Assembly: GCA_014361015.1 (NCBI GenBank)
Contig: JACIWJ010000013.1
Span: 1 to 36,359 of the forward strand
Origin: Candidatus Bipolaricaulota bacterium
GTDB taxonomy: Bacteria; Bipolaricaulota; Bipolaricaulia; Bipolaricaulales; Bipolaricaulaceae
Length of the DNA: 36,359 nucleotides
Reading direction: 5' to 3'
Position numbers and translations under genes: made by a program. The stretch's first letter is position 1. Each line of letters opens with the position of its first letter. The notes under the pieces are model-generated. The model ran no database searches. It saw nothing but the letters and a program-made list of their open reading frames with translations, and had not been told where the DNA came from. Shown piece by piece: positions 6,937-18,362 of this stretch.

Positions 6937-8232
6937 ATGAACCCCGTGTACATCGAGGACCTGGATCGGCACGTCGGGAGCGACGTGTGGATCCACGGCT
7001 GGCTCTACCACAAGCGGTCGTCGGGCAAGATCCGGTTCATCGTCGTCCGCGACGGGACCGGCCTCGTGCAGGGTGTGGTCACCCCGGAGGCCGGCCCGGT
7101 TGCGTTCGAGCTCGCCGATTCGTTGCCCCAGGAGGCCTCGCTCCGCGTGGGGGGGACGGTGCGGGCTGAACCACGGGCCCCGGGCGGGTTCGAGCTCGCG
7201 GTCTCCCGCCTCGAGCCGGTGCACGTCCCGACCACCCCGTTCCCGATCGGACCGAAGGAGCACGGGACGGGCTTCCTGATGGACCACCGCCACCTGTGGA
7301 TCCGCAGCCGCCGCCAGACCCCGATCCTCCGCATCCGCGACGCGGTGCTGTGGGCGATCCGGAGCTTCTTCCACGAGCGGGGGTTCGTGGCCACGGAGGC
7401 CCCTGTCCTCGTCGGAACGTCGGTCGAGGGGACGACGACCCTGTTCCCCCTCGACTACTTCGGGAACCCGGCGTACCTGTCGCAGTCCGGCCAGCTCTAC
7501 CTCGAGGCGACGTGCGCCGCCCTGGGCAAGGTGTACTGGATCGGCCCCGTGTTCCGGGCGGAGAAGTCGAAGACCCGGCGCCACCTGATCGAGTTCTGGA
7601 TGGCGGAGGCCGAGCAGGCGTTCCTCGACCACGAGGGGAACCTCGCCCTGCAAGAGGACCTCGTGCGGTACGTGGTGGAGGCGGTGGCCGCGGAGCGCCA
7701 GCGCGAGCTCGCTGAACTGGAGCGCGATCCTGCCTTGCTCCTGCGCGAAGTGGGGGAGCGGTTCGCGCGCATCACCTACCGGGAGGCGGTGGCGCTGGTC
7801 CGGGACTCGGGCGTGGAGATGGAGTTCGGGGACGACTTCGGGGCGCCAGCGGAGGACGCGCTGTCCCGGCACTTCGGCCACCCCGTGTTCGTGGAGCGGT
7901 TCCCGGCCGCGATCAAGCCGTTCTACATGAAGCGCGACCCCGCACAGCCCGACCTCGCTCTGTGCGCGGATCTCATCGCCCCCGAGGGGTACGGGGAGAT
8001 CATCGGGGGCTCCCAGCGCGTGGACACGGAGGAAGAGCTCCTCGCCCAGTTGCGGGAGGCCAACCTCCCCCCCGAACCGTACCAGTGGTACGCCGACCTC
8101 CGCCGGTGGGGTTCCGTCCCCCACTCCGGGTTCGGCCTCGGCGTGGAGCGCACGGTGCAATGGCTCACCGGGACCGCCCACATCCGCGAGACGATCCCGT
8201 TCCCAAGGACCCTCGACCGCCTCTATCCTTGA
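6937..8232 (+). CDS. asnS: Asparaginyl-tRNA synthetase
   Basis: 431 aa class II aaRS: VWIHGWLYHKRSSGKIRFIVVRDGTG, QSGQLYLEA.. YWIGPVFRAEKSKTRRHLIEFWMAEAE, GFGLGVERTVQWLTG. Confidence 0.93.
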   Translation: MNPVYIEDLDRHVGSDVWIHGWLYHKRSSGKIRFIVVRDGTGLVQGVVTPEAGPVAFELADSLPQEASLRVGGTVRAEPRAPGGFELAVSRLEPVHVPTTPFPIGPKEHGTGFLMDHRHLWIRSRRQTPILRIRDAVLWAIRSFFHERGFVATEAPVLVGTSVEGTTTLFPLDYFGNPAYLSQSGQLYLEATCAALGKVYWIGPVFRAEKSKTRRHLIEFWMAEAEQAFLDHEGNLALQEDLVRYVVEAVAAERQRELAELERDPALLLREVGERFARITYREAVALVRDSGVEMEFGDDFGAPAEDALSRHFGHPVFVERFPAAIKPFYMKRDPAQPDLALCADLIAPEGYGEIIGGSQRVDTEEELLAQLREANLPPEPYQWYADLRRWGSVPHSGFGLGVERTVQWLTGTAHIRETIPFPRTLDRLYP

Positions 8233-8257
8233 CCGCGAGGGTGAGGCGGGCTACACT
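8229..8257 (+). promoter_or_regulatory. Strong sigma70-type promoter overlapping the asnS stop codon (TTGACC-17-TACACT)
   Basis: TTGACC 8229-8234, spacer 8235-8251 (17 nt), TACACT 8252-8257. It fires into a short intergenic region with no plus-strand ORF. Confidence 0.7.
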
Positions 8258-8344
8258 GGGTGAGCGGGTCAGCTGCCTCTGACCGACCACGCACCACGCC
8301 CGGTGGCGGGAAGCCACCTCCTCGAACCAGCGGCACAACCGAGC

Positions 8345-8375
8345 GTGGGCGGCTGCCATCCGGGCAGCCGCCCAC
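8345..8375. terminator. 13-bp perfect hairpin in the asnS/HU convergent intergenic region
   Basis: GTGGGCGGCTGCC-ATCCG-GGCAGCCGCCCAC. Confidence 0.65.
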
Positions 8376-8382
8376 CTCACCC

Positions 8383-8400
8383 CTGACGCGAACGCGTCAG
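8383..8400 (+). terminator. Second hairpin followed by a T-rich tract on the plus strand; overlaps the HU stop codon
   Basis: CTGACGCG-AA-CGCGTCAG followed by CCTTTCTTTA. Confidence 0.55.
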
Positions 8401-8720
8401 CCTTTCTTTACCGTAAGGTGGCCGCGCTGGTCCACGACCTTCAGGCGCTTGGCGACCAGGGTCTTCAGGTTCTTACCGGGCTTGAACGCCGGAACGACCT
8501 TCGCCGGCACCATGATCCGCCGCTGGGTCTGCGGGTTGATGCGCTGCGACTGCTTTCGCGTGCGCACCTCGAACTTCCCGAACCCCGTCAGGAGGACCTC
8601 CTCGTTGGCGGCGATGCTCTCCGTGACGATGTCAATCGTGGCATCGAGCGCCTTTCGGGCGTCCTTTTTCGTAAGCCCAGTCCGCTGTGCAATCCGATCT
8701 ACCAGTTCTCCCTTGTTCAT
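8397..8720 (-). CDS. hup: HU-family DNA-binding protein with a short basic C-terminal extension
   Basis: 107 aa: MNKGELVDRIAQRTGLTKKDARKALDATIDIVTESIAANEEVLLTGFGKFEVRTRKQSQRINPQTQRRIMVPAKVVPAFKPGKNLK... then RLKVVDQRGHLTVKKG. Confidence 0.95.
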   Translation of the reverse strand: MNKGELVDRIAQRTGLTKKDARKALDATIDIVTESIAANEEVLLTGFGKFEVRTRKQSQRINPQTQRRIMVPAKVVPAFKPGKNLKTLVAKRLKVVDQRGHLTVKKG

Positions 8721-8753
8721 CGTAACACCCCCTCCCTGGGTCAAAGATGCGCT

Positions 8754-8782
8754 AGTATAGAGCGCTTTCCCCCCCTTGTCAA
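8754..8782 (-). promoter_or_regulatory. HU promoter (TTGACA-17-TATACT)
   Basis: Minus strand TTGACA (8782-8777), 17-bp spacer, TATACT (8759-8754), about 30 nt upstream of the HU ATG. Confidence 0.85.
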
Positions 8783-8823
8783 GTGCGAACGTACTTCCCA
8801 TGCCCCTTTCCGTGGAAAAACGG

Positions 8824-8852
8824 TTGACGGGCCGCGCCGAGGTGAGTAGAGT
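8824..8852 (+). promoter_or_regulatory. Promoter for the rpsF operon (TTGACG-17-TAGAGT)
   Basis: TTGACG 8824-8829, 17-bp spacer, TAGAGT 8847-8852, followed by the SD AAAGGAGG and the rpsF GTG. Confidence 0.75.
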
Positions 8853-8891
8853 TCCGCTTGATACGAGATCTTCTCCAAAGGAGGAACGCTG

Positions 8892-9194
8892 GTGGCTGGT
8901 GAGGTACGCAACTATGAGATGGTGTACATCCTTCGTCCCGACCTGGATGAGGAGGGACGGCGGTCCAAGATCGCCAAGGTCCAACAGGTCATCGAGGCGG
9001 AGGAGGGCGCCATCCACACCACGGATGAATGGGGCGCCCGCATCCTGGCCTACGAAATCAACCACTTCCGCGAGGGATACTACGTTCTCGTCACCTTCAC
9101 CCTCCCCGCGGATCGGGTGCACAGGGTGGAGGAGAAGCTGGCGATGGACGATGCCTTCCTCCGCTACCAGACGGTGCGGGTGAACGGAAGTTAG
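8892..9194 (+). CDS. rpsF: 30S ribosomal protein S6
   Basis: 100 aa, RNYEMVYILRPDLDEE...HFREGYYVLVTFTLPADRVHRVEEKLAMDDAFLRYQTVRV; AAAGGAGG SD upstream. Confidence 0.95.
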   Translation: MAGEVRNYEMVYILRPDLDEEGRRSKIAKVQQVIEAEEGAIHTTDEWGARILAYEINHFREGYYVLVTFTLPADRVHRVEEKLAMDDAFLRYQTVRVNGS

Positions 9195-9195
9195 G

Positions 9196-9612
9196 ATGAG
9201 CGATGTCAATCGGGTCCTCCTCACCGGCCGCCTCACCGCGGACCCCGACCTGCGCTACACCCCGTCGGGCCAGGCGCTGGCCCGGTTCACCGTGGCGGTG
9301 AACCGCGTGTGGCAGAACCCGAAGACCGGGGCTCAGGAGAAGGAGGAGAACTTCGTCCCCATCGTCGTATGGGGAAAACAGGGCGAGAACTGTGCCCAGT
9401 ACCTGCGCAAGGGCCGTCTGGTCGCGGTGGATGGGAGGCTCCGTGTGCGCTCGTTCACGACCCAGAACGGGGACCGGCGACGGATCTCTGAGGTGGTCGC
9501 CCAATCCGTGCACTTCTTGGGCAGCCGGCCGGAGTCCACGGAGGTGCCCGCCCCGCCGGAGGCCCCGGAGGAAGAGGTGGAAGCCCCACCTGAAGAGGAG
9601 GTTCCGTTTTGA
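9196..9612 (+). CDS. ssb: Single-stranded DNA-binding protein
   Basis: 138 aa, NRVLLTGRLTADPDLRYTPSGQALARFTVAVNRVW..., OB fold and acidic tail ending EEEVPF. Confidence 0.96.
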   Translation: MSDVNRVLLTGRLTADPDLRYTPSGQALARFTVAVNRVWQNPKTGAQEKEENFVPIVVWGKQGENCAQYLRKGRLVAVDGRLRVRSFTTQNGDRRRISEVVAQSVHFLGSRPESTEVPAPPEAPEEEVEAPPEEEVPF

Positions 9613-9827
9613 TGACGCAACACCAACGCCGGATGTGCCGTGTCTGTGACCAAGGGTTGAAGCTGCGGTATACGGATCCCGAGACGCTCCGGCAGTTCAT
9701 GAACCGCCGCGGGAAGATCCTCTCGCGGCGGGTTTCCCGGCTGTGCGCCAAGCACCAGAACCGGATGGCGACCGAGATCGACCGCGCCCGCAAGCTCGCC
9801 TTGCTCCCCTACGAGGACCGGCCCTAG
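9612..9827 (+). CDS. rpsR: 30S ribosomal protein S18 (Cys-containing form)
   Basis: RMCRVCDQGLKLRYTDPETLRQFMNRRGKILSRRVSRLCAKHQNRMATEIDRARKLALLPYEDRP; start overlaps the ssb stop. Confidence 0.95.
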   Translation: MTQHQRRMCRVCDQGLKLRYTDPETLRQFMNRRGKILSRRVSRLCAKHQNRMATEIDRARKLALLPYEDRP

Positions 9828-9836
9828 TCGCCCTCC

Positions 9837-10943
9837 ATGCCCCGCACGGTCGCCCTCCTGTTCGACAGCGGGGACAGGGACCTGGTCGGCAGGGCGAGGA
9901 CGGCATCCGCAATCGCCCTTCTCCGCCGCATCGCCGATCACCCCCAGGTGGATGAAGCGGTGGTGGCGACCCCGCACCCCGAGCCGTGGGAGGGACACGG
10001 GGTGGTGATCGAGCCCGACCCGCTGGGGCGCTGGCAGTTCGGGGGGCGGTTCACCGCCCTCCTCCGCAAGTACCGACCGGACCGGCTCCTCTACTTCTCG
10101 GCTGGGAGCGGGTTCCTCCTCTCGGACGCCATGCTCGATCGGCTCATCGGCGCGGCGCCGGCCCCCCCGCCGTACGCGGTGCTCAACAACTTCTACTCCA
10201 CCGACTTCGGGCTCCTCGCCCCTCCGTCCCCGCTGGGGGACCTGGCCCGCGACAACCCGATCGGCACCCGGCTGTGGCAAGCGGGCTACGCCTGCTACGA
10301 GCTGCCGCGGTCGGCGGAGACCCAGCTCGACATCGACACCCCAGGGGAGCTGCAGATCCTCGCCCTCCATCCCGCCCTCCCGCCCGAGCTCGCCCAAACG
10401 CTCGCCGAGGTCCCCACTCGCCGCGCGGGGCGGCTCCTGGAGATCCTCGTCAACCCCGACCGGGAGGTGGTCCTCCTCGGCCGAGTGGGAGGGCACCTCG
10501 CTCGGCACGTGGAGCGGGAGGCCGCGTGCCGAGCCCGCATTCTCTCCGAAGAACGGGGGATGGAGTCGAGCGGGCGCGCCGAGCGGGGGGCGGTGCGGTC
10601 GCTGGTCGGGGCGCTCGCCCACGGGCGGAGCGCAACCGAACTCGTCGGGCTCCTCGCCCAGTTCGGGGACGCCGTGGTGTGGGACACGCGCGTCCTCATG
10701 GCCCACCTCGGGTTCTGGCCCCCGCCCGCGGAGAGGTTCGCCTCCGACCTCCTCGATCCCGAGCAGGTCGTGAACCCAATGTTGAAGGAGCTCACTGCGG
10801 CCTGTGCCCAGGCGCCGATCCCGTTCCTCCTCGGCGGGCACGCCCTCGTGTCGGGGGGGATGTACCTCGCCCTCGATCTCGCGTGGGAGGACGAGGACCG
10901 GGGGGAACGGTTCCGACCGTTTCCCCTCCCCGAAGTGAGGTGA
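9837..10943 (+). CDS. Two-domain protein with an N-terminal nucleotidyltransferase (CofC/MobA)-like domain; function unknown
   Basis: 368 aa: MPRTVALLFDSGDRDLVGRARTASAIALLRRIADHPQVDEAVVAT... DRLLYFSAGSGFLLSDAMLDRL... ETQLDIDTPGELQILALHP, then a separate C-terminal domain. Ends 3 nt before the glyA-gcvT fusion. Confidence 0.5.
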   Translation: MPRTVALLFDSGDRDLVGRARTASAIALLRRIADHPQVDEAVVATPHPEPWEGHGVVIEPDPLGRWQFGGRFTALLRKYRPDRLLYFSAGSGFLLSDAMLDRLIGAAPAPPPYAVLNNFYSTDFGLLAPPSPLGDLARDNPIGTRLWQAGYACYELPRSAETQLDIDTPGELQILALHPALPPELAQTLAEVPTRRAGRLLEILVNPDREVVLLGRVGGHLARHVEREAACRARILSEERGMESSGRAERGAVRSLVGALAHGRSATELVGLLAQFGDAVVWDTRVLMAHLGFWPPPAERFASDLLDPEQVVNPMLKELTAACAQAPIPFLLGGHALVSGGMYLALDLAWEDEDRGERFRPFPLPEVR

Positions 10944-10946
10944 ACT

Positions 10947-13900
10947 GTGATCGAGAACGATGTGTGGACGATGGGTCTTGCCGAGGTGGACCGGGCGCTC
11001 GCGGCGCTCGTGGCCGCGGAGGAGCGGCGGCAGCGGGACAAGGTCATCCTGATCCCGTCGGAGTCCCTGACCCCGCCTGCCGTGCGGGAAGCGATGGCCT
11101 CGGCGTTCACCTCGATCTACGCCGAGGGGTATCCCCGCGAGGAGATGCTGCGCCTGCCCGAGGACCGCTTGGCGGAGGTCGACGAACAGCTCGCCTACTT
11201 CCGCCGGTACAGCGACCGCCGGTTCTACAAGGGAGTGGAGTTCGCCGACCTGGTGGAGGCCCTCGCCTGCCGCCGTGCCGCGGAGTGCTTCGCCACGCCC
11301 GAGGTGGGGGCGGAGGACATCTTCGTCAACGTGCAAGCGCTGTCCGGGGCGGCCGCGAACATGGCGATCTACGACGCGCTGCTTGAGCCAGGGGACACGC
11401 TGATGGCGATGGACCTCTCCCAGGGGGGGCACCTCTCCCACGGGTCGCCGTTCCACCAGTCCGGCCGGCGGTACCAGATGGTGCGCTACGGGGTCGACCC
11501 GCGCACCGAACGGCTCGACTACGACCGGATCGCCGACCTCGCCCGCCAGCACCGGCCGCGGATGATCCTCGCCGGCTACACCTCCTACCCCTGGGCTCCG
11601 GACTGGAAGGCGTTTCGGGAGATTGCGTCCTCGTGTGGGGCGTTCCTCATGGCGGACATCGCCCACACCGCGGGGATGGCGATCGCGGGTGCATACCCAA
11701 GTCCGGTTGGCTATGCCGATGTGGTCATGTTCACCACCCACAAGACCCTGTGCGGGCCGCGGGGGGCGGTGATCCTCTCGTTTGACCCCGAGATCGCGGC
11801 CCGGATCGACGCCGCCGTGTTCCCCGGCGCCCAAGGGGGGCCCCACGTGAACAAGTGGGCCGGGATCGCCGTCGCCCTCGCGCTGGCCCGCACACCGGCG
11901 TTCCGTGACCTCCAGCACCGCACGGTGGCCAACGCCCAGGCGCTGGCCGCGGCCCTCGCGGCGCGCGGGGTGCGCCTCGCGTACGGGGGGACGAACACCC
12001 ACCTCCTCGTCCTCGACCTCCGCCCCCTTTCCACCCCCAACGGCGGAGAGCTGATGGGGGAGGTCGCAGCCCGCATCCTCGACCTCGTGGGCCTCGTCGC
12101 CAACAAGAACACGATCCCCGGCGACAGCTCCGCGGCCGACGCCCGCGGGATCCGCTACGGGACCCCGTGGGTCACCCAGCGGGGAATGGGGGAGAGGGAG
12201 ATGGAGGAGATCGCCGACGTGACCCGCCTCGTCCTGACCTCGATCCACCCCTTCGCCTACCAGGGGCTGAGCGGGCCCCTGTTCCGGGGAAAGCTCCCGT
12301 TGTCCGTGCTCGGGGAGGCCACGGAACGGACCCGACAGCTCGCCGCTCGGTTCGGGGGGCAGCTCGACCGCCCCTCGGCTCCGACCGACCGCGCGGGGGC
12401 GCTCCGGGTGCGCGGGGGACGGGCGGCGAGTTTCCTCCACGAGGCGTGCTCCACGCACGTGCTCGGCCTCGACCCCGGCCAGGGTCGGCGGACCCTGTTC
12501 CTCGACGGGGAGGGGAAGGTCCTCTCCGAGGCGATCGTGGGGCGCCTCCCGGACGACCGCTGGGGCCGCCCGGAGTTCGCCGTCCTCACCCCCCCCGGCA
12601 ATGCCCCGCGGCTCCACCGCTGGCTCGCTGCGCTGGCCGATGGGTACGTGCTGTTCGACCCCGACGACGTGTACCGCAAGGTGCAGGGGCCGGCGGTGGT
12701 CGAGCCCTGCACTGGCCCGGCATCGTTCCGCCTCGACGATGGGACGGAGATCGCCCTCGGAGGGGGCGCCCGCGCCGTCCCGTTCCTCGACGTCCCGGTG
12801 GGGGCCGATCCCCGCGACCGCCACCCGGGGCTCGTCGCCCCGCGGAAGCCGTACTTCGTGGGCTGCCAGGGGATCGAGCTCCCGGCGACCCGGTCCGCCT
12901 ACACCCCTGCTCCTCCCCCTTCCCCTCTCGCTCGGACGCCGCTTGGGGGTTGGCACAAGGGGGCCGGGGCGCGGATGGCGGAGTTCGCCGGGTTCGAGAT
13001 GCCCCTCTGGTACACCTCGGCCCTCGCCGAGCACCGCGCGGTGCGCGAACGGGCGGGCCTGTTCGACCTCGGACACATGGGCGTGTTCGCGGTGGAGGGG
13101 CGGTTCGCGGAGAGCTTCCTCAACCTCGTGACCACGAACTACGCAGGATGGCTCCACCCCGGCCAATCCCAGTACGCCTTCCTCCTCACCCCCAACGGGG
13201 AAGTGGTCGACGACCTCATCGTGTACCGGCAGTCCCGGGAGCGGTTCCTCCTCGTCGTGAACGCTGCCAATGCGAGCAAGGACTGGGACTGGCTCACGGC
13301 GATCAGCGCCGGAAAGGCCCTCCTCGATCCCGACCGACCGTGGATCGAGCCCGATGGCCCGGTCACCCTGCGCGACCTGCGGGGGGAGGGACCGGACGCG
13401 TTGGTGGACATCGCTCTACAGGGCCCGCGGTCGCGGGCGGTGCTCCTCCGCCTCCTCTCCGGGCCGGACCGACACGACCTGATCGCCCTCCGGCGCACGG
13501 AGTTCTGCGAGCTCTCTGCAGGCGGGATCCCCATCCTCTGTGCCCGGACCGGCTACACGGGAGAGCCGTTGGGGTACGAGATCCTCGTTCCCCCGAACGA
13601 GGCGAGGCGCCTCTGGGAGTCCCTGATCGAGGTCGGGAGGGAAGATGGCCTCCCGCCCGTCGGGCTTGCAGCCCGTGACTCTCTGCGCACCGAGGCCGGC
13701 CTCCCCCTGTACGGGCACGAACTGGCGGGACCGCACCGGATCCTCCCCCACGAGGCGGGGTTCGCTCCCTATGTGAAGCTCCACAAGCCGTTCTTCATCG
13801 GGCGTTCCGCCGTGATGCGTGCGCTTGGGGACTGGAAACGAGAGGTCGTGCGGTTCGAGATCGGCCCCGGTCAGCGGCCGGTGCGGGCGGGGGCACCGGT

Positions 13901-14150
13901 CGTGGATCAGCGGGGCCAAGTCCTGGGCTGGGTCACAAGCTGTGTTGCGCTGGACTCCGGACAAGTGGGGATGGCCCTCCTTGCGGCGCGGGGGCTCCCC
14001 GCAGAGACCCCTCTTGGGTTCATCGTCGGCGGGGAGCGGGAGCTACCCCGGGCGCTCGAACCGGGAGCGCGGGTGCCGCTTTTCGTATGGGGTCGGGTCC
14101 TTCCCCGCTTCCTCAAGCGGGAGGCCCTCCCCCAGGCGGGGGAGGACTAG
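10947..14150 (+). CDS. Fusion protein: serine hydroxymethyltransferase, degenerate GcvT/YgfZ-like domain, aminomethyltransferase (GcvT)
   Basis: 1067 aa single frame. N-terminal SHMT with PLP-lysine motif FTTHKTLCGPRGAV and HVNKWAGIAVAL; C-terminal GcvT (GARMAEFAGFEMPLWYTSALAEHRAVRERAGLFDLGHMG... GQSQYAFLLTPNGEVVDDLIVYR... TGYTGEPLGYEILVP... GLAARDSLRTEAGLPLYGHEL). Confidence 0.92.
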   Translation: MIENDVWTMGLAEVDRALAALVAAEERRQRDKVILIPSESLTPPAVREAMASAFTSIYAEGYPREEMLRLPEDRLAEVDEQLAYFRRYSDRRFYKGVEFADLVEALACRRAAECFATPEVGAEDIFVNVQALSGAAANMAIYDALLEPGDTLMAMDLSQGGHLSHGSPFHQSGRRYQMVRYGVDPRTERLDYDRIADLARQHRPRMILAGYTSYPWAPDWKAFREIASSCGAFLMADIAHTAGMAIAGAYPSPVGYADVVMFTTHKTLCGPRGAVILSFDPEIAARIDAAVFPGAQGGPHVNKWAGIAVALALARTPAFRDLQHRTVANAQALAAALAARGVRLAYGGTNTHLLVLDLRPLSTPNGGELMGEVAARILDLVGLVANKNTIPGDSSAADARGIRYGTPWVTQRGMGEREMEEIADVTRLVLTSIHPFAYQGLSGPLFRGKLPLSVLGEATERTRQLAARFGGQLDRPSAPTDRAGALRVRGGRAASFLHEACSTHVLGLDPGQGRRTLFLDGEGKVLSEAIVGRLPDDRWGRPEFAVLTPPGNAPRLHRWLAALADGYVLFDPDDVYRKVQGPAVVEPCTGPASFRLDDGTEIALGGGARAVPFLDVPVGADPRDRHPGLVAPRKPYFVGCQGIELPATRSAYTPAPPPSPLARTPLGGWHKGAGARMAEFAGFEMPLWYTSALAEHRAVRERAGLFDLGHMGVFAVEGRFAESFLNLVTTNYAGWLHPGQSQYAFLLTPNGEVVDDLIVYRQSRERFLLVVNAANASKDWDWLTAISAGKALLDPDRPWIEPDGPVTLRDLRGEGPDALVDIALQGPRSRAVLLRLLSGPDRHDLIALRRTEFCELSAGGIPILCARTGYTGEPLGYEILVPPNEARRLWESLIEVGREDGLPPVGLAARDSLRTEAGLPLYGHELAGPHRILPHEAGFAPYVKLHKPFFIGRSAVMRALGDWKREVVRFEIGPGQRPVRAGAPVVDQRGQVLGWVTSCVALDSGQVGMALLAARGLPAETPLGFIVGGERELPRALEPGARVPLFVWGRVLPRFLKREALPQAGED

Positions 14151-16590: not shown

Positions 16591-16598
16591 CGTTGGGC

Positions 16599-16605
16599 TA
16601 TGATA
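16599..16605. promoter_or_regulatory. Shared, near-symmetric -10 element for divergent lon-like and PLD genes
   Basis: TATGATA: reads TATGAT toward the PLD ATG (8 nt gap) and TATCAT toward the lon ATG (9 nt gap). Confidence 0.55.
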
Positions 16606-16612
16606 CCCCGCG

Positions 16613-17665
16613 ATGAAGCGCGTGGCCATCTTGCTCTTCTTCGCTGTCTGGACCGCGCAGGCGCTCCCCGTCATCCCGTTGGCGACCACGCCCGACCGCG
16701 GGACGTACCCCGAGTTCGTCGCGGCACGGATCGCCTCGGCAGAAGAGGAAGTCCTCGTCGCCCTGTCCGACCTCCGCCTCTACGCGGGGGACGGCGCCAC
16801 GTCCCCCCTTGTCGCTGCCCTCGTCGGCGCAGCGGCCCGCGGGGTCGCGGTGCGGGTCCTCGTCGACCGGCGGGGGGACGGGCCCTACCGGGAGCAGCAG
16901 GAGGCGTTCGCCCACCTCGCGGAGCGGGGCGTGGCGGTGCGATGGGACGATCCGCAGGTGACCCTCCACACGAAGTTCCTCGTCGTCGACCGGCGGTGGG
17001 TTGTGGCCGGATCCACCCATTGGACGGCCTCGGCCCTCACGCGGAGCGTCCAGCTGGACCTGGCGGTGGAGGACGAGGAGGTGGGGGGCGCGTTCCGATC
17101 GTTCTTCGACCTCTTGTGGGAGGGGCAAATCAAGGCGAGCGCGCACCTCCCCCCGCAGCCGTGGCCCCGACCGACCTTGGTCCCCCTTCTCGACTTCCCC
17201 CAGGGAGGGCTCCATGCCGAGCTCATCCCCCGTCTCGTCCGCCAGGCTCAGGAGTCCGTCTGCGCCATCATCTACCGGTTGGGTTACTACCCGGCCTACG
17301 GGGACAGCCCGTCCAACCGGATCGTGGAGGAGCTGCGCGCGGCGGCGAGCCGGGGGGTGGCGGTCTCCGTCCTCCTCGAGGGGGGAGAGGACTTCCCGGA
17401 CCTCGCGCGGGACAACCAGCTCGCGGGGGCGTACCTTGCGACCGGCGGAGTGCGGGTCCGGTTCGACGCGCCCGGCACTACCCTCCACGCCAAGTGCCTG
17501 ATCGTGGATGGACAGGATGTGGTGATCAGCTCCGCCAACTGGTCCTACGCGTCGCTCGTCCAGAACGTGGAGGCGGGCCTCGCCGTGCTGGGAGCACCCG
17601 CCCTCGGGCTGCCGTTGCGGCACCTGTTCGACGAACTGTGGGAGCGAGCTCGGCCCCTCCCCTAG
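16613..17665 (+). CDS. Phospholipase D-family protein with two HKD motifs and a signal peptide
   Basis: 350 aa: N-terminal hydrophobic signal MKRVAILLFFAVWTAQALP, HKD motifs LHTKFLVVDRRWVVAGSTHWT and LHAKCLIVDGQDVVISSANWSYAS. Confidence 0.93.
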   Translation: MKRVAILLFFAVWTAQALPVIPLATTPDRGTYPEFVAARIASAEEEVLVALSDLRLYAGDGATSPLVAALVGAAARGVAVRVLVDRRGDGPYREQQEAFAHLAERGVAVRWDDPQVTLHTKFLVVDRRWVVAGSTHWTASALTRSVQLDLAVEDEEVGGAFRSFFDLLWEGQIKASAHLPPQPWPRPTLVPLLDFPQGGLHAELIPRLVRQAQESVCAIIYRLGYYPAYGDSPSNRIVEELRAAASRGVAVSVLLEGGEDFPDLARDNQLAGAYLATGGVRVRFDAPGTTLHAKCLIVDGQDVVISSANWSYASLVQNVEAGLAVLGAPALGLPLRHLFDELWERARPLP

Positions 17666-18318
17666 AAGCTCACCGGGCCGGCGACGGGGATCGTCACCCG
17701 TTCCACTCTCCCTTCCATGCCCACGAACCCCGTGACCCACCCCATCAGCCGCGCCCGCGCCCCCGACGAAGGGGGATACAGGACGTAGCTCACGGTGAGC
17801 TCCTGCCCCGGGTACAGCTCCATGGCGGACGAAGGCAGGATCTCCAATTGCCCTTGCTCGTTCACGGTGCTCGGATCGCGCGCTGTCACCACCCACCCCG
17901 GGGGAACATCCACCGTCAGCCCCGGGGCCATGATCCGGGTCCGCGCGAGGAAGGTGACCGTGACCTCCACCGCGCTCTGAGTCCAGCGGACCTCGCGGAT
18001 GGCCCCTCCTCGCGCATCGGCCACCACCATCGTGCTGAGCCGCGCCAGAGGTTGCCCGCCATGGACGACGTCCACCACGACCTCCCACGGCCCAGCGGGC
18101 ACGATCCAACTCGCCCACGGTTGGCTCGTGGTCGCATCGGGCCGCCCATCGCCATTGAAGTCCCACTTGAACTGAGCCCCGGCCGGCGCCCCGGCCACCT
18201 GGAGGGTGATCTCCGCCCCCGGAAGGGGGATCGCGGTCGACGGGATCAAGCCGAGGCCGCTCGCCAAGGCTAGGAACCCGAACACCATCGAACATGCGGT
18301 TGCTGTGACCAGCCGCAT
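17662..18318 (-). CDS. Exported PKD-like protein of unknown function
   Basis: 218 aa with signal peptide MRLVTATACSMVFGFLALASG and the PKD-like FKWDFNGDGRPDATTSQPWASW; SD AAGGAGG 5 nt before the ATG. Confidence 0.7.
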   Translation of the reverse strand: MRLVTATACSMVFGFLALASGLGLIPSTAIPLPGAEITLQVAGAPAGAQFKWDFNGDGRPDATTSQPWASWIVPAGPWEVVVDVVHGGQPLARLSTMVVADARGGAIREVRWTQSAVEVTVTFLARTRIMAPGLTVDVPPGWVVTARDPSTVNEQGQLEILPSSAMELYPGQELTVSYVLYPPSSGARARLMGWVTGFVGMEGRVERVTIPVAGPVSF

Positions 18319-18341
18319 CGTTGCCTCCTTCGTTGTGGCAA

Positions 18342-18362
18342 GCGGGGGCCATCGGCCCCCGC
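18342..18362 (-). terminator. 9-bp perfect hairpin between two co-directional surface-protein genes
   Basis: GCGGGGGCC-ATC-GGCCCCCGC, followed on the minus strand by TTGCC; sits between the stop at 18400 and the start at 18318. Confidence 0.55.

Follow-up and report, generated by a model that had tools for sequence, protein, structure and literature searches.

A single-chain fusion of serine hydroxymethyltransferase and an aminomethyltransferase with a decayed GcvT domain between them

Introduction

Why should serine hydroxymethyltransferase (SHMT, GlyA) and the aminomethyltransferase of glycine cleavage (T-protein, GcvT) be carried on one polypeptide, and what is the segment that lies between them? 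These questions are raised by a gene of Candidatus Bipolaricaulota bacterium (GenBank assembly GCA_014361015.1, contig JACIWJ010000013.1), which was analysed here within a window of 36,359 nucleotides. Both component enzymes are classical. For the mitochondria of photorespiring plants, substrate channelling between SHMT and the glycine cleavage system has been discussed, but the separateness of the proteins makes it hard to test. A fusion joins the maker and the user of one labile intermediate in a single chain, and the channelling question becomes a comparison of a fused with a split enzyme.

The preliminary description of the window had allowed that the three-part architecture might already be documented, but a search of open-access literature, full text included, yielded no description of it. 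A genome paper on Acetothermia mentions the glycine cleavage system, with no fusion in its main text (PMC6092417). The open-access papers searched appear not to describe the architecture, the decayed duplicate within it or the way the fusion takes the place of both single genes.

Results

The fused reading frame and its two flanking enzymes

The fusion is encoded by a single uninterrupted open reading frame of 1067 amino acids at positions 10947..14150 of the forward strand. Its start codon is GTG, 3 nt past the stop of the upstream gene, and a Shine-Dalgarno-like GAGG (10937..10940, +) lies 6 nt ahead of it. Pfam searches matched SHMT at 374.3 bits (cut-off 27) and GCV_T in the C-terminal part at 275.1 bits. 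A scan of the genome collection gave 77 loci, and full-length fusion frames of 1000-1400 aa were recovered from 61 besides the window. The single-frame joining of SHMT and GcvT claimed in the preliminary description was confirmed by the frame itself, the Pfam matches and these 61 homologues, and its domain coordinates were essentially right, with the SHMT ending near 12242 and the C-terminal GcvT starting near 12927. An assembly chimera or a chance frame is excluded by the other 61 full-length frames and is also countered by dN/dS values that stay far below 1 for each of the three parts. The AlphaFold model of the whole chain was predicted with a pLDDT of 90 and a pTM of 0.87, and its top PDB matches were SHMTs with target TM-scores of about 0.95.

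The SHMT domain occupies residues 1-432 (10947..12242, +; PF00464 E 7.5e-112) and scored 409.8 bits against the NCBIfam model PRK00011 (NF000586), over the cut-off of 335. A relationship to PRK13580 was considered and dropped, as the score of 285.7 bits was far from that model's cut-off of 735 and below the PRK00011 score. In E. coli GlyA numbering, the equivalents of S35, Y55, E57, Y65, H126, D200, H203, K229, R235 and R363 are present in all 62 fusions and that of H228 in 61. Alignment with homologues places the PLP-binding lysine (E. coli K229) at K266, codon 11742..11744 (+). Two departures were observed near this otherwise conserved site. The position of S99 is alanine in 59 of the 62 fusions, and the alignment shows a 26-residue insertion (residues 64-89; 11136..11213, +) between the GYP and FYKG motifs, next to active-site tyrosines; this insertion is shared by the fusion homologues compared and is not seen in E. 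coli GlyA. Given the insertion and the alanine substitution, the kinetics or specificity of this SHMT may differ. A C-terminal extension and linker (12243..12395, +) follows, with invariant R447 and K449 and a predicted helix at residues 452-467.

At the other end, residues 661-1067 (12927..14147, +) form a complete GcvT domain, with PF01571 matched at residues 668-939 and the 1yx2 T-protein at E 1.3e-54. The TGYTGE and ARDxxRxEAG motifs are present, and equivalents of E. coli GcvT D97, D98, Y102, N114, R224 and R228 were found in 62 of 62 C-terminal domains, including the catalytic D97 (D755 in the fusion; codon 13209..13211, +; invariant in 62/62). The NCBIfam gcvT models fell just under their cut-offs (PRK00389, 285 of 300 bits; TIGR00528, 231.6 of 235.85 bits), which is consistent with a divergent C-terminal barrel, for which PF08669 gave an E value of 0.02, below its Pfam cut-off. 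As judged by these residues, both the SHMT and the C-terminal GcvT ends should be active.

Identity and origin of the middle domain

Between the two enzymes lies a degenerate GcvT domain at residues 484-645 (12396..12881, +), which was recognized by Pfam, profile-profile comparison and fold. Residues 484-583 (nt 12396-12695) align with PF01571 positions 49-147 at 36.3 bits, above the cut-off of 25.6, and a whole-genome GCV_T scan detected the same segment at 35.3 bits (E 4.5e-9). PF01571 was matched by all 51 aligned middle segments, with E values up to 0.01. Compared by hhalign with the C-terminal GcvT of its own family, the middle gave a probability of 99.9% and an E value of 3.2e-31, collinear over 184 columns. 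The N-terminal half is kept; the profile-profile alignment then shows a deletion of about 85 central residues, which held the TGYTGE and ARDxxR segments, and picks up again at KPYFVG, the counterpart of HKPFFIG in the C-terminal GcvT. In the query SE stands in place of the catalytic DD pair, which is replaced in Bipolaricaulota and intact in only 10 of the 51 middles. With the catalytic aspartate and both segments gone, the middle domain of the query is, by its sequence, a pseudo-domain. The three-part architecture with a degenerate GcvT in the middle, as proposed in the preliminary description, is borne out by Pfam, profile-profile comparison, phylogeny and fold in agreement.

That description had likened the segment to a GcvT/YgfZ pattern, and only the first half of the label holds. 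If the middle were a YgfZ/IBA57-type iron-sulfur repair module and not a duplicated GcvT, its fold would look much as predicted: the AlphaFold model of the segment (pLDDT 90, pTM 0.85) has IBA57 beside T-proteins among its best Foldseek matches in the PDB, and a K-x-x-x-x-G-Q motif stands at the corresponding place. The YgfZ motif reads K-G-C-Y-x-G-Q-E, with its cysteine. The query has KPYFVG(C)Q, in which the position of that cysteine is not Cys, nor is it in the aligned homologues displayed. The sequence profile of the middle matched T-proteins at 6e-14 and YgfZ at 0.06-0.08, and an insertion is common to the middle and the C-terminal GcvT. A YgfZ/IBA57 identity, which the fold search alone would permit, is rejected on sequence, and we consider it extremely unlikely.

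The shared insertion also bears on where the middle domain came from. Both GcvT copies carry it after the WL motif (e.g. AGKALLDPDRPWIEPDGPVTLRDL), and it occurs in none of the 14 stand-alone GcvTs compared. In the middle domain it reads YVLFDPDDVYRKVQGP (12645..12692, +), with K578, G581 and P582 invariant; the C-terminal copy lies at 13314..13361 (+). Middles, C-terminal domains and stand-alone GcvTs formed three groups (support 100/96, 94/89 and 100/100) in an unrooted tree with some long branches. Because the insertion is common to the two domains of the fusion, the middle is best read as a tandem duplicate made inside the fusion, and the sequence comparison points to such an origin. Homologues from Planctomycetota, Poribacteria, archaea and other metagenome-assembled genomes (MAGs) have a long middle that matches the query's C-terminal GcvT at 25-32% in BLAST. 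The duplicate has therefore decayed, most strongly in Bipolaricaulota.

Decay has not meant free drift. With saturated pairs left out, dN/dS was about 0.07-0.41 for the middle, 0.02-0.20 for the SHMT and 0.06-0.24 for the C-terminal GcvT. Within Bipolaricaulota the middle gave mostly 0.2-0.4 against 0.1-0.2, evolving about twice as fast. On these ratios the middle domain is under purifying selection and not neutral. K578, G581, P582 and KPYFVG are invariant or nearly so in middles across very distant lineages.

Distribution and genomic context

By label, fusions occur in Bipolaricaulota, Chloroflexota including Thermoflexus, Spirochaetota, Planctomycetota, Poribacteria, Thermodesulfobacteriota, other deltaproteobacterial lineages and an Actinomycetes MAG, and among archaea in Thermoplasmatota and Euryarchaeota; such MAG labels can be wrong. 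The SHMT parts of 36 fusions formed one clade (100/100) relative to 16 stand-alone SHMTs, and the simplest history is therefore a single origin followed by horizontal spread. Within the phylum, the fusion was found in families f1, f2, f6 and f9, while f3, f4, f5, f7 and f8 have a separate SHMT and, in most, a separate GcvT too. Two genomes each hold two fusion copies (contigs C40, locus L107, and C11 of G083; contigs C209 and C62 of G005), possibly paralogues or a strain mixture in the MAG.

The preliminary description stated that neither gcvH nor gcvP is present in the window, which is correct; the same does not hold for the genome. Another contig of the host (G000, C56) carries gcvH (7422-7805), with its lipoyl-lysine motif ESVKA intact, followed by gcvPA (7802-9118) and gcvPB (9118-10572), with no gcvT adjoining these genes on that contig. 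Profile scans of the host genome (93.6% complete) found the fusion to be its only SHMT and its only GCV_T. Usually the fusion is a genome's one copy of both enzymes. GCV_H was detected in 38 of 38 fusion genomes and GDC-P in 36, a stand-alone SHMT is absent from 28 and present in 10, and no further GCV_T scored over the cut-off in 29. At eight fusion loci (L024, L026, L030, L033, L035, L036, L062 and L064) gcvH is on the same stretch, either immediately after the fusion or no more than a few kb away. That genomes with GcvH and P-protein otherwise lack a T-protein strengthens the functional reading of the fusion. The host genome also contains formate-THF ligase, and a domain search found it to lack the acetyl-CoA synthase domain CdhC. 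This combination agrees with the published picture of Acetothermia as able to break glycine and serine down to formate via the cleavage system and tetrahydrofolate (THF) (PMC6092417).

Directly upstream, 3 nt from the fusion, lies an uncharacterised conserved gene of 368 aa (9837..10943, +), which is probably co-transcribed with it. No relative of its product was found in Pfam, NCBIfam or the PDB. In 34 fetched loci, homologues of this gene precede the fusion. Within the host's phylum, 70 of 74 fusion genomes have it, as do 2 of the 19 genomes in which the enzymes are separate, counts that ignore relatedness; elsewhere it was found in 8 of 23 fusion genomes. The last figure suggests that the gene is a partner in some lineages and no universal requirement. 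By eye, and without profile support, the N-terminal half of the protein resembles a GT-A nucleotidyltransferase (LDIDTPGEL). Two other neighbours in the window may be recorded here. A 279-aa frame at 8397-9236 (-) carries an HU DNA-binding domain that is confined to residues 173-261; the part before it is a long N-terminal extension, or else the true start is internal. A 584-aa frame at 16598-18352 (-), between genes for a LonB-like protease and a PKD-domain protein, gave no Pfam match.

Discussion

The fusion is very probably a bifunctional T-protein/SHMT whose glycine cleavage system is complete and in which a pseudo-T-protein acts as spacer, a reading that we draw from sequence and gene content. 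The C-terminal GcvT would convert aminomethyl-GcvH and THF reversibly to 5,10-methylene-THF and NH3, and the N-terminal SHMT would combine the 5,10-methylene-THF with a second glycine, again reversibly, giving serine and returning THF. Run catabolically, the SHMT and GcvT ends would together supply methylene-THF from serine and glycine. The middle pseudo-enzyme is most likely a spacer or interface that would keep the active domains, perhaps around an SHMT dimer, in register.

Alternatively, the C-terminal domain might be a GcvT-family demethylase of the sarcosine, dimethylglycine or TMAO type feeding methylene-THF to the SHMT. Enzymes of this kind exist, and the domain scored moderately against two of their models (NF053776, 140.9 bits; TIGR01372, 143.6 bits). 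The GcvT models scored far higher, however (285 bits for PRK00389), T-proteins head the PDB matches, the genome encodes GcvH and P-protein without another T-protein, and the fusion lies near gcv genes in several phyla. We regard a demethylase as very unlikely. It is somewhat easier to imagine, although still improbable, that the middle domain retains a weak folate- or GcvH-binding role as a second docking site or a THF reservoir. It has kept the N-terminal half of a folate-binding domain, and a minority of homologues preserve the DD pair (10/51), but Bipolaricaulota have other residues in place of that pair (SE in the query) and lack the TGYTGE and ARDxxR segments.

Whether the bifunctional T-protein/SHMT passes its intermediate between sites is a separate matter. 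Methylene-THF from the glycine cleavage system decomposes to formaldehyde (PMC7227101), and a consumer placed beside the producer would therefore help; a short path might be more useful still in thermophiles such as Thermoflexus. We give a local hand-over of methylene-THF and THF between the SHMT and GcvT sites nearly, though not quite, an even chance. Fusion alone is no basis for inferring channelling, as a constant ratio of two enzymes can be reason enough for genes to fuse. A fusion kept just for co-expression and fixed stoichiometry, in which independent enzymes release methylene-THF to diffuse freely and the middle is a decaying passive linker, is a rival that we hold to be rather less than evenly probable. 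The twofold faster evolution of the middle, the loss of its catalytic aspartate and central part, and the stand-alone SHMT in 10 of 38 fusion genomes would all fit such an origin. It does not so readily account for the purifying selection on the middle or for residues conserved over such distant lineages, and the persistence of the fusion in a single clade that covers many phyla points to a gain beyond dosage. The most inclusive scenario is an ancient T-protein/SHMT fusion that moved among bacterial phyla and reached archaea, with the pseudo-T-protein, a product of internal duplication, serving methylene-THF/THF channelling and the orphan upstream protein as a functional partner; taken as a whole it is tentative and, on present evidence, unlikely.

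The fusion matters beyond its own chemistry. Within one protein family it records a catalytic domain being duplicated and then decaying stepwise to a non-catalytic one, it exposes a linked conserved orphan gene, and it may serve as a part for engineered reductive glycine pathways.

Among known systems, YgfZ and IBA57 have the folate-binding fold in common with the middle domain, which differs in lacking their motif cysteine and is tied to GcvT by its sequence and insertion. The 4-fluorothreonine transaldolase likewise has an SHMT domain within a larger fusion, but the partner and the chemistry differ, and the score against its model was 85.5 bits where the cut-off is 650. Dimethylglycine dehydrogenase, the sarcosine oxidase alpha subunit and TMAO demethylase also have GcvT fused to an enzyme that shares its one-carbon unit. 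Their partner carries out a demethylation, with a flavin in the first two, and is not a PLP-dependent SHMT, and we know of no second GcvT copy in these fusions. Compared with GlyA (PF00464, PRK00011), the SHMT of the fusion has the same fold, PLP lysine and substrate and folate residues and is the sole SHMT in most fusion genomes, but it bears the 26-residue insertion, the C-terminal extension and two attached GcvT domains, and the fusion SHMTs form a clade separate from the stand-alone SHMTs sampled. The closest counterpart of the other end is the T-protein itself (PF01571), with which it shares the catalytic aspartate, TGYTGE and ARDxxRxEAG, and the partners GcvH and P-protein in the genome. 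The fusion's copy differs in sitting behind an SHMT, in its extra insertion of about 16 residues and divergent C-terminal barrel, and in being preceded by what appears to be its own decayed duplicate.
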